DNA from: Arenicola marina
Lineage: Eukaryota > Annelida > Polychaeta > Arenicolidae
Assembly: GCA_964019135.1 (NCBI GenBank)
Contig: OZ025258.1
Span: 1,798,001-1,862,000 of the forward strand
Length of the DNA: 64,000 nucleotides
Direction of reading: 5' to 3'
A program made the translations under genes and the position numbers. Below, piece after piece: positions 10,005 through 53,905 of the stretch (the stretch's first letter is position 1; the number at the start of each line of letters is the position of its first letter). The notes under the pieces are model-generated. The model was given only the letters and a program-made list of their open reading frames with translations, did no database searches and was not told the origin of the DNA.

Positions 10005-10252
10005 ATGGCACACTTACTCGGCAGCAAGTACTGCATTGACAGTCTGCGCCACGATGTCACAGATTTGCAAGAAGCAGTAGTAGATGTTTTCTCTAGAGCG
10101 GGTCCAGTTCACTGCCCTTCATGGAAATATCCCGACAAGATCAGCAGTGACCTGGACATGACTGATATACTGGAGCGATGTGAATACTCATCCGAAGATG
10201 AGGAGCGGTGCCAAGTCTCTCACATCTTGCTGTTAGAGTTGGTGATTGATAG
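10005..10252 (+). CDS. CCDC157: CCDC157 coding exon 1 (aa 1-82 and part of 83)
   Basis: Start ATG at 10005 (GGCCATGG context) chosen because MAHLLG is the family's N-terminus; the frame is open 30 bases further up, but that Met is not conserved. Donor GATAG|GTAAGC, phase 2. It encodes the best-conserved part of the protein. Confidence 0.9.
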
Positions 10253-13200
10253 GTAAGCCTGCTGAGGAATGCAACGTTCTTTGTTAGTTTATTGTACTTG
10301 CATGACCAATGATAAGTTAAATTAAGTAGTTTGCAAATTTATACATGGACTGGCTAGAATATATATATATAACAAATATACAAATATATAGATATAACAA
10401 ATATGCACAACTTCAGTACAGTTTTTTCTGCGATCTCCCCCTCCGTAGTCTGCCTGTTGGGTGTGTTGTTGATGGTGTACGTCCCATTGCCGTGTGTAGG
10501 TTGGTCCTGTTGGGTGTGTTGTTGATGGTGTACGTCCCATTGCCGTGTGTAGGTTGGTCCCGTTGGGTGTGTTGTTGATGGTGTACGTCCCATTGCCGTG
10601 TGTAGGTTGGTCCTGTTGGGTGTGTTGTTGATGGTGTACGTCCCATTGCCGTGTGTAGGTTGGTCCTGTTGGGTGTGTTGTTGATGGTGTACGTCCCATT
10701 GCCGTGTGTAGGTTGGTCCCGTTGGGTGTGTTGTTGATGGTGTACGTCCCATTGCCGTGTGTAGGTTGGTCCTGTTGGGTGTGTTGTTGATGGTGTACGT
10801 CCCATTGCCGTGTGTAGGTTGGTCCTGTTGGGTGTGTTGTTGATGGTGTACGTCCCATTGCCGTGTGTAGGTTGGTCCTGTTGGGTGTGTTGTTGATGGT
10901 GTACGTCCCATTGCCGTGTGTAGGTTGGTCCTGTTGGGTGTGTTGTTGATGGTGTACGTCCCATTGCCGTGTGTAGGTTGGTCCTGTTGGGTGTGTTGTT
11001 GATGGTGTACGTCCCATTGCCGTGTGGAGGTTTGTCCTGATGGGTGTGTTGTTGATGGTGTACCTTCCATTGCCGTGTGTAGGTTGGTCCTGTTGGGTGT
11101 GTTGTTGATGGTGTACGTCCCATTGCCGTGTGTAGGTTGGTCCTGTTGGGTGTGTTGTTAATGGTGTACGTCCCATTGCCGTGTGTAGGTTGGTCCTGTT
11201 GGGTGTGTTGTTGATGGTGTACGTCCCATTGCCGTGTGTAGGTTGGTCCTGTTGGGTGTGTTGTTGATGGTGTACGTCCCATTGCCGTGTGTAGGTTGGT
11301 CCTGTTGGGTGTGTTGTTGATGGTGTACGTCCCATTGCCGTGTGTAGGTTGGTCCTGTTGGGTGTGTGGTTGATGGTGTACGTCCCATTGCCGTGTGTAG
11401 GTTGGTCCTGTTGGGTGTGTTGTTGATGGTGTACGTCCCATTGCCGTGTGTAGGTTGGTCCTGTTGGGTGTGTTGTTGATGGTGTACGTCCCATTGCCGT
11501 GTGTAGGTTGGTCCTGTTGGGTGTGTGGTTGATGGTGTACGTCCCATTGCCGTGTGTAGGTTGGTCCTGTTGGGTGTGTTGTTGATGGTGTACGTCCCAT
11601 TGCCGTGTGTAGGTTGGTCCTGTTGGGTGTGTTGTTGATGGTGTACGTCCCATTGCCGTGTGTTGGTTGGTCCCGTTGGGTGGGTGGTTGATGGTGTACG
11701 TCCCATTGCCGTGTGTAGGTTGGTCCTGTTGGGTGTGTTGTTGATGGTGTACGTCCCATTGCCGTGTGTAGGTTGGTCCTGTTGGGTGTGTTGTTGATGG
11801 TGTACGTCCCATTGCCGTGTGTAGGTTGGTCCTGTTGGGTGTGTTGTTGATGGTGTACGTCCCATTGCCGTGTGTAGGTTGGTCCTGTTGGGTGTGTTGT
11901 TGATGGTGTACGTCCCATTGCCGTGTGTAGGTTGGTCCTGTTGGGTGTGTTGTTGATGGTGTACGTCCCATTGCCGTGTGTAGGTTGGTCCTGTTGGGTG
12001 TGTTGTTGATGGTGTACGTCCCATTGCCGTGTGTAGGTTGGTCCTGTTGGGTGTGTGGTTGATGGTGTACGTCCCATTGCCGTGTGTAGGTTGGTCCTGT
12101 TGGGTGTGTTGTTAATGGTGTACGTCCCATTGCCGTGTGTAGGTTGGTCCTGTTGGGTGTGTTGTTGATGGTGTACGTCCCATTGCCGTGTGTAGGTTGG
12201 TCCTGTTGGGTGTGTTTTTGATGGTGTACGTCCCATTGCCGTGTGTAGGTTGGTCCTGTTGGGTGTGTGGTTGATGGTGTACGTCCCATTGCCGTGTGTA
12301 GGTTGGTCCTGTTGGGTGTGTTGTTGATGGTGTACGTCCCATTGCCGTGTGTAGGTTGGTCCTGTTGGGTGTGTTGTTGATGGTGTACGTCCCATTGCCG
12401 TGTGTAGGTTGGTCCTGTTGGGTGTGTGGTTGATGGTGTACGTCCCATTGCCGTGTGTAGGTTGGTCCTGTTGGGTGTGTGGTTGATGGTGTACGTCCCA
12501 TTGCCGTGTGTAGGTTGGTCCTGTTGGGTGTGTGGTTAAGATAAGATAAGATAAGATAAAGTTTTATTTAACGTCGGTATGTAAAAGTCAACAATAAACA
12601 TTAGCACACGTGCTATTGACCGACAATGATAAAATGACATGAGCGGATGAGATATATATACATATGACAATGAAAATAGAACAATCTTTGCATCTCATAA
12701 AACCTTACCCATTAGCTATGTTACATAATGTGCACGAATTACAGTGACACAAGAACACATCCGAGGTTGACAGCGTTGTTTTAAATTGCTTGGCAGATTT
12801 GGCTAACTTCGTTTCCTTGTTGAGCATGTTCCATAGCTTGCTACCTTGATACTTCAATGAATTATGGCCATAAGCTGTTGTCTTAACGCGTGGCATACAT
12901 AAATTTGGCCCATTTTTTAAAATGTAATTGTTTTCCTTCACGTTATACATGTCCTGAAGATAACTAGGCCCAATCTTGTTGATACTCTTGTAAACTTCTA
13001 ATGATATGCAGCGCAATCGTTCAACATATAGCAATGGTCTACCCGCTCTCTTCCTCAACTCTGCGTATTCTGATCTAAAGTCATTAAACACATACCTCAA
13101 TGCCCGCTCCTGTATCTTTTCAATCTTACGCATATTTTTCATATCACAAAAATGCCATACAACCGGACAATAATTAAAATGTGAAAGAATAAAAGCATGA

Positions 13201-53005: not shown

Positions 53006-53905
53006 TTACTGTTGGTAACTCCTGGTCACTCATGTTGCTATGGTCCATTGTAGTTACATCACTCCTGTTGCTATGGTCCATTGTAGTTACATTGCTCCTG
53101 TTGCTATGGTCCATTGAAGTTACATCGCTCCTGTTGCTATGGTCAATTGTAGTTACATCGCCCCTGTTGCTATGGCCCATTGTAGTTACATCGCTACTGT
53201 TGCTATAATCCATTGTAGTTACATTGCTCCTGTTGCTATGGTCCATTGTAGTTACATCGCTCCTACTGCTATGGTCTAGTGTAGTTACATCGCTACTGTT
53301 GCTATGGTCCATTGTAGTTACATCGCTACTGTTGCTATGGTCAATTGTAGTAACATTGCTACTGTTGCTATGGACCGTTGTAGTTACATCGCTCCTGTTG
53401 CTATGGTCTATTGTAGTTACATCGCTCCTACTGCTATGGTCTATTGTAGTTACATCGCTACTGTTGCTATGGTCCATTTGTGCTTACATAACTCCTGTTG
53501 CTATGGCCCATTGTGCTTACATCGTTCCTGTTGCTATGGTCAATTGTACTTACATCGCTCCTGTTGCTATGGCCCATTGTAGTTACATCGCTACTGTTGC
53601 TATGGTTCATTGTAGTTACATCGCTACTGTTGCTATGGTCAATTGTAGTAACATTGCTGCTGTTGCTATGGTCCATTGTAATTACATCGCTACTGTTGCT
53701 ATGGTCAATTGTGGTAACATTGCTCCTGTTGCTATGGTCAATTGTAGTAACATTGCTCCTGTTGCTATGGTCCATTGTAGTTACATCGCTACTGTTGCTA
53801 TGGCCCATTGTGCTTACATCACTCCTGTTGCTATGGTCAATTGTTGTAACATCGTTCCTGTTGCTATGGTATATTGTACTTACATCGCTCCTGCTGACAT
53901 TCCAG
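53006..53905 (+). repeat. 33-bp minisatellite (about 27 copies) in the 3' UTR, copied from the end of the coding sequence
   Basis: Unit GTTGCTATGGTCCATTGTAG then TTACATCGCTCCT. In the phase of the gene a unit reads LHRSCCYGPL-stop; the true gene end reads [10 protein letters not shown]-stop. The array therefore repeats the last ten codons with the stop codon, mostly with synonymous-looking differences from the founder. Confidence 0.93.

Follow-up and report, generated by a model that had tools for sequence, protein, structure and literature searches.

Results

Tandem arrays on the exon edges of a single gene

A single ten-exon gene of Arenicola marina carries six tandem arrays whose units contain sequence from its own exon edges, and it takes to an extreme a pattern known from publications on lancelets and birds. 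These arrays are probably mirage minisatellites, that is, tandem duplications of 33–74 bp that by chance included an exon edge or the stop codon, were tolerated as the protein was unchanged, and grew by unequal exchange or replication slippage. The gene lies in a stretch of 64,000 nt that was analysed as a whole and that we refer to as the window. In our gene model, joining the following ten exons, all of whose borders are GT-AG, yields an uninterrupted open reading frame (ORF) of 778 codons:

10005–10252, + strand: exon 1 (start codon to donor)
17558–17729, + strand: exon 2
18037–18742, + strand: exon 3
19483–19694, + strand: exon 4
20854–21000, + strand: exon 5
24083–24251, + strand: exon 6
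26827–26966, + strand: exon 7
51675–51745, + strand: exon 8
52090–52403, + strand: exon 9
52848–53005, + strand: exon 10, coding part up to the stop codon

We tentatively take the gene to be CCDC157, named after the human protein. Searched against Pfam, the gene product matched no family above cut-off, the best sub-threshold match being PRKG1_interact (E 0.0048, 18 versus 32.4 bits), and scanning viral contigs with exon 3 returned 12 pattern matches with no relative among them. GC3 is 0.73–0.88 in eight of the ten exons, 0.54 in exon 1 and 0.64 in exon 6. An AATAAA near 54031 is the likely poly(A) signal. Tandem arrays make up 46,826 of the 64,000 bases of the window (73%; spans entered by hand from TRF and alignment) and, between the start codon (10005) and this signal, 36,529 of 44,031 bases (83%). 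Coding exon 9 itself holds an in-frame 24-bp repeat at 52145–52204 (2.5 copies), which encodes GGVPASHP twice.

As the initial annotation had proposed, arrays with exon sequence in their units lie, all in register, at three acceptors (exons 2, 5 and 8), at two donors (exons 6 and 7) and at the ORF end. Its unit lengths of 53, 58/60, 48/40, 63, 74 and 33 bp were likewise recovered (with 66 bp in addition to 74 bp), and the units of the six arrays, all built on exon edges of one gene, are unrelated to each other. The arrays are as follows, with copy numbers that may be off in the assembly:

10453–12537, + strand: 53-bp exon 2 acceptor array, left part, 39.3 copies, 99.0% identity
15727–17570, + strand: 53-bp exon 2 acceptor array, right part, 34.8 copies
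19944–20867, + strand: 58/60-bp exon 5 acceptor array, 15.4 copies, unit with 14 nt of exon 5
24240–26574, + strand: 63-bp exon 6 donor array, 37 copies, unit with 12 nt of exon 6
26917–38264, + strand: 74/66-bp exon 7 donor array, 152.8 copies, unit of 50 nt of exon 7 and 24 nt of intron
38257–51682, + strand: 48/40-bp exon 8 acceptor array, 279.7 copies, unit with 8 nt of exon 8
52973–53896, + strand: 33-bp ORF-end array made up of the final 11 codons (stop codon included) and about 26 more copies in the 3′ UTR
12538–15726, − strand: non-LTR retrotransposon inserted in the 53-bp array as a separate event (RVT_1, E 3e-33)

The tandem unit crosses an exon–intron boundary in five of the nine arrays of the gene, and the earlier assignment to the published 'mirage' kind is supported for the arrays built on exon edges; the ORF-end array spans no splice site. 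We assessed the exon part of each unit by asking what fraction of all CDS positions, including the true one, give an in-register match of equal or better quality. An equally good match was found at 0.0004 of 2297 positions for the exon 2 acceptor (13 nt), at 0.0009 of 2297 for the exon 5 acceptor (14 nt, 3 mismatches), at 0.0004 of 2298 for the exon 6 donor (12 nt) and at 0.0004 of 2277 for the exon 7 donor (50 nt, 1 mismatch). The weakest edge is the exon 8 acceptor (8 nt, 1 mismatch), with 0.0057 of 2297 positions, and the exon match is rarer than chance at each of the five splice edges. Breakpoints lie 8, 12, 13, 14 and 50 nt inside the exon and 40, 51, 40, 46 and 24 nt inside the intron. 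Fragments of the adjacent exon have been copied through the neighbouring intron, and the predicted exon structure and coding sequence are intact.

The genuine exon 2 acceptor, together with 13 nt of exon 2, sits in the last copy of the right part of the 53-bp array. The retrotransposon that separates the two parts has its GATAA-repeat end at 12538. Because the array continues in register on both sides of the element and its halves share variants (4 in common, of 11 and 15), the array predates the insertion. A minus-strand frame stays open from the 53-bp array into the retrotransposon.

Decoy splice sites in the array copies

Copies within the arrays differ, with identities of 92–99%, and the decoy splice sites that they carry are nearly identical to the genuine ones. 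In unit alignments the GT is intact in 37 of 37 exon 6 copies and 151 of 156 exon 7 copies, and the AG in 38 of 39 and 32 of 35 copies of the two exon 2 halves and in all 16 exon 5 copies. A direct count of the exon 8 copies gave 259 TTGCAG, 24 TTGCAT and 9 others; the corresponding unit alignment gave 219 of 290 with intact AG, partly because 40-bp copies were misaligned. Acceptor copies of exons 2 and 8 read AG/GT. Comparing broken sites with the number expected at mean divergence, we observed no clear signal of selection for or against decoy splice sites: 3 versus 1.2 and 1 versus 0.8 in the exon 2 halves, 0 versus 1.0 for exon 5, 0 versus 1.8 for exon 6, 5 versus 12.9 for exon 7, and 71 versus 27.7 for exon 8, the last count being inflated by the misaligned 40-bp copies.

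We further determined the consequence of decoy misuse for one neighbouring copy per splice-site array. Use of the neighbouring copy would lead to an early stop at all five splice edges, at codons 105, 458, 568, 602 and 618 of 779. A protein role for the five splice arrays was considered and ruled out, since the neighbouring decoy tested gives an early stop in each. The gene lends itself as a natural test of how splice sites are chosen when many are nearly identical.

An intron composed of two facing arrays

Intron 7 (24,708 nt) is without unique sequence: about 153 copies of the donor unit run up to about 280 copies of the acceptor unit, and the two arrays abut near 38257–38264. The intron parts of the two units have 9 nt in common, at the end of one and the start of the other (P 0.006, 5000 dinucleotide shuffles). 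Such an overlap would be expected if a single intron of about 56 nt had supplied both units; the junction of the arrays itself does not preserve this proposed intron.

Counting the genuine sites, there are 88 occurrences of the 26-nt donor context and 213 of the 25-nt acceptor context. From the last donor to the first intact acceptor the distance is 152 nt, against 24,708 nt for the pair that produces the protein. Judged from these counts, local splice-site sequence could not be what selects the genuine intron 7 sites, and we infer that closeness to the exon body is most likely the cue for genuine splice sites. A more far-reaching reading appears rather doubtful to us: with about 130–150 near-identical donors, about 259 acceptors and a cheapest pair that is the wrong one, correct splicing of intron 7 would need exon-body pairing, or the AG/GT copies would act as recursive-splicing ratchets that remove the 24.7-kb intron stepwise, and mirages, bird stuttering and the stop-codon array would form one class of protein-silent tandem duplication.

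The array at the end of the ORF

The initial annotation described the unit at the stop codon as a piece of exon joined to UTR. The array does overlap the exon edge, but its whole 33-bp unit corresponds to terminal CDS with the stop codon. Rotated and aligned to the ORF end, the unit reads LHRSCCYGPL-stop. Of its 33 positions, 26 are identical to the terminal bases of the ORF, the best other 33-mer of the CDS reaching 21 (2,264 tested, all rotations). Seven of the 33 bases differ from the exon, yet 10 of the 11 codon meanings are kept, an outcome with P 0.002 if changes were random. Most of the change may accordingly have arisen under selection in the coding copy, with the array retaining the older version. 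Homogenised arrays may in this way preserve older versions of exon ends.

At default alignment stringency the array starts at 53026, 21 nt after the stop codon; at two laxer settings it starts at 52971, inside exon 10. Identity among its copies is 92.1%. Because the exon is reached solely with laxer scoring, this array is the oldest-looking of the six.

Arrays away from exon edges and comparison with chance

Three further arrays of the gene, absent from the initial annotation, have no exon overlap and serve as counter-examples, and additional arrays surround a neighbouring gene:

19028–19388, + strand: 76-bp array in intron 3
21015–24013, + strand: 27-bp array in intron 5, 110 copies, beginning 15 nt past the end of exon 5
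52478–52767, + strand: 32-bp array in intron 9
57295–61581, − strand: ZNRF3/RNF43-like RING gene (RING peptide match), tail to tail with the ten-exon gene

None of the four arrays around the ZNRF3-like neighbour (54867–55325, 55413–56609, 56878–57281 and 61615–64000) overlaps the edges placed, the last of them sitting 34 bp upstream of a 27-nt exon. Edge-overlapping arrays amount to six of nine in the ten-exon gene and to six of 13 when those of the neighbour are added. The array at 56878–57281 lies in the 3′ UTR of the neighbour and ends 14 bp from its stop codon, with no overlap seen.

For the test of the nine arrays, those of the 66 TRF rows that lay inside a larger array were merged by hand. 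Left out were short repeats (e.g. 52145–52204, 56768–56842, 58359–58452, 58525–58618, 61160–61192 and 61463–61498) and the repeats at 1–3290 and 6056–9282, where no exon is placed; the length of the 3′ UTR in the null assumes the AATAAA near 54031. With present-day introns 0.2 overlaps are expected and P(6 or more of 9) is 9e-9, a null that we rejected, since the arrays themselves lengthened the introns and the value misleads. Array-free introns measure 56–455 nt. Counting every placement of units of these sizes that leaves the protein intact, the array-free null predicts 2.5–2.9 of 9 overlaps versus 6 observed (P 0.016–0.034, by minimum overlap) and, if arrays may not leave their introns, 4.1 of 9 (P(6 or more) 0.13). 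Ancestral introns 1.5, 2 or 3 times longer would give P 0.004, 9e-4 and 1e-4, respectively.

Including or removing the arrays when introns are measured strongly alters the significance of the overlap between arrays and edges. The initial annotation had called a chance overlap very unlikely; this stands with present-day introns or with ancestral introns at least twice as long (P 9e-4 or less), but not with array-free introns or with arrays conditioned on their introns. A modest excess of edge overlaps is possible, and not demonstrated. The exon overlaps are skewed short, with four of five at ≤14 nt (P 0.014 under uniform placement, for a threshold chosen post hoc), and the mean exon fraction of the overlaps compared with uniform placement gives P 0.06.

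Origin of the arrays

In the scenario of chance duplication that we favour, tandem duplications of 33–74 bp would arise at many places and those silent in the protein would survive. A duplication would be silent if the first copy of a donor works, the last copy of an acceptor, or the first copy of a stop codon, as translation ends there. Growth to hundreds of copies would follow by the usual minisatellite turnover, through unequal exchange or replication slippage. Introns that were short before expansion would lead to edges being hit often, and intron 7 may originally have been only about 56 nt long, too short for most such duplications to miss an exon. Selective retention of protein-silent duplications would account for the use of both splice edges and the stop codon, and the stop-codon array suggests that what counts is silence in the protein and not a property of splicing. 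Duplications within coding exons lack this silence, and the three tandem repeats seen inside coding exons have periods of 24 bp (exon 9) and of 12 and 30 bp (the long exon of the neighbour), all multiples of three.

The initial annotation had instead proposed a process that starts tandem duplication at exon ends, and the data do not bear this out. A splice-site-, transcription- or chromatin-linked process for which exon ends are active starting points would accord with the overlap of six of the nine arrays with an edge (residual excess P ~0.02), and the sense-strand G-over-C skew of the intron 7 units (0.48 and 0.61) and of the intron 1, 3 and 4 units (0.43, 0.66 and 0.37) would suit transcription-linked instability. 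Against that, the units of intron 6 (0.12) and of the ORF end (−0.07) show little or no skew, and the intron 3 unit, which overlaps no exon, shows a large one; since not all units are skewed and one away from the edges is strongly so, skew does not explain array position. Breakpoints lie off the edges, 8–50 nt inside exons and at no fixed distance, and edges are missed by three arrays in the gene and four around the neighbour. No splice site exists at the ORF end, and a large part of the count is accounted for by random placement once introns are taken as short and array-free. We regard active exon ends as unlikely.

Overlaps of 8–14 nt at four of the five splice edges could also be taken for late encroachment, with arrays beginning anywhere in introns and slipping into the first exon bases afterwards. 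This we hold to be quite improbable: 50 nt of the exon 7 unit are exonic, the ORF-end unit is coding throughout, and the overlapping bases belong to the repeated unit and so were present when the copies were made. An assembly artefact or misplaced exon edges would be a highly improbable cause, given that copies differ at 92–99% identity, that a retrotransposon splits one array in register and that the ten GT-AG exons join into an intact ORF of 778 codons.

Relation to known systems

Lancelet mirages are described, in passages of PMC3087553 and PMC3902484, for Adh3, the globins BflGb6 and BflGb9, PGBD5 and TnC; they occur at 5′ and 3′ boundaries, many copies carry AG or GT, and normal splicing is reported to be undisturbed. 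Five of the arrays presented here equally span exon–intron boundaries, and their decoy copies keep splice signals. In contrast to the small copy numbers given there for lancelets (3–6 units in BflGb6; 2–7 and 3–6 in PGBD5), copy numbers reach about 280 here, and six arrays occur in one gene, unlike in those published cases. The term 'stop codon' is absent from the text of PMC3087553 and PMC3902484, and a stop-codon array appears in neither.

Exon stuttering in chicken, as described in PMC12954441 (2026), affects 236 introns of 115 genes, mostly on dot chromosomes, with 1–44 copies (median 4), and is called novel by its authors. A lateral part of an exon is copied locally with its donor or acceptor, filling introns and leaving the coding sequence intact, and the process is linked to GC-rich genes; intron 18 of PHF8 contains two clusters. 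The same features are found here, with exon-edge copies that fill introns, an intact coding sequence and two clusters in one intron (intron 7), at copy numbers of up to about 280 versus 1–44. The words mirage, lancelet, stop codon and UTR are all absent from the main text of PMC12954441, which seems not to link exon stuttering to the lancelet precedent. Lancelet mirages and bird exon stuttering look like one phenomenon, and the present gene joins the two literatures.

A related idea is the AGGT tandem-duplication model of intron gain, as outlined in PMC3087553. As in that model, the duplicated segments carry splice signals (the exon 2 and 8 copies read AG/GT); unlike in the model, no new intron results and the predicted exon structure is unchanged. 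Among open-licence full texts, which leave most subscription journals outside, we found no report of a stop-codon array, of an intron built solely from a donor array facing an acceptor array or of a copy number this high.

Neighbouring features

Among PDB sequences, the RING peptide of the minus-strand neighbour matches ZNRF3 best (E 1.7e-19). A RING query with a single exon of this gene gave a weak match to RNF13 (E 0.36), and its long exon gave nothing against Pfam. Human CCDC157 and ZNRF3 are both located on 22q12, and the linkage may be conserved.

An element at 1955–3346 has 104-nt inverted ends (88% complementary) and GC-rich repeats oppositely oriented at its two ends; from this structure it looks like a non-autonomous DNA transposon. 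Long arrays outside the ten-exon gene lie at 1–1810 (39 bp), 6056–9282 (39 bp) and 61679–63999 (51 bp).
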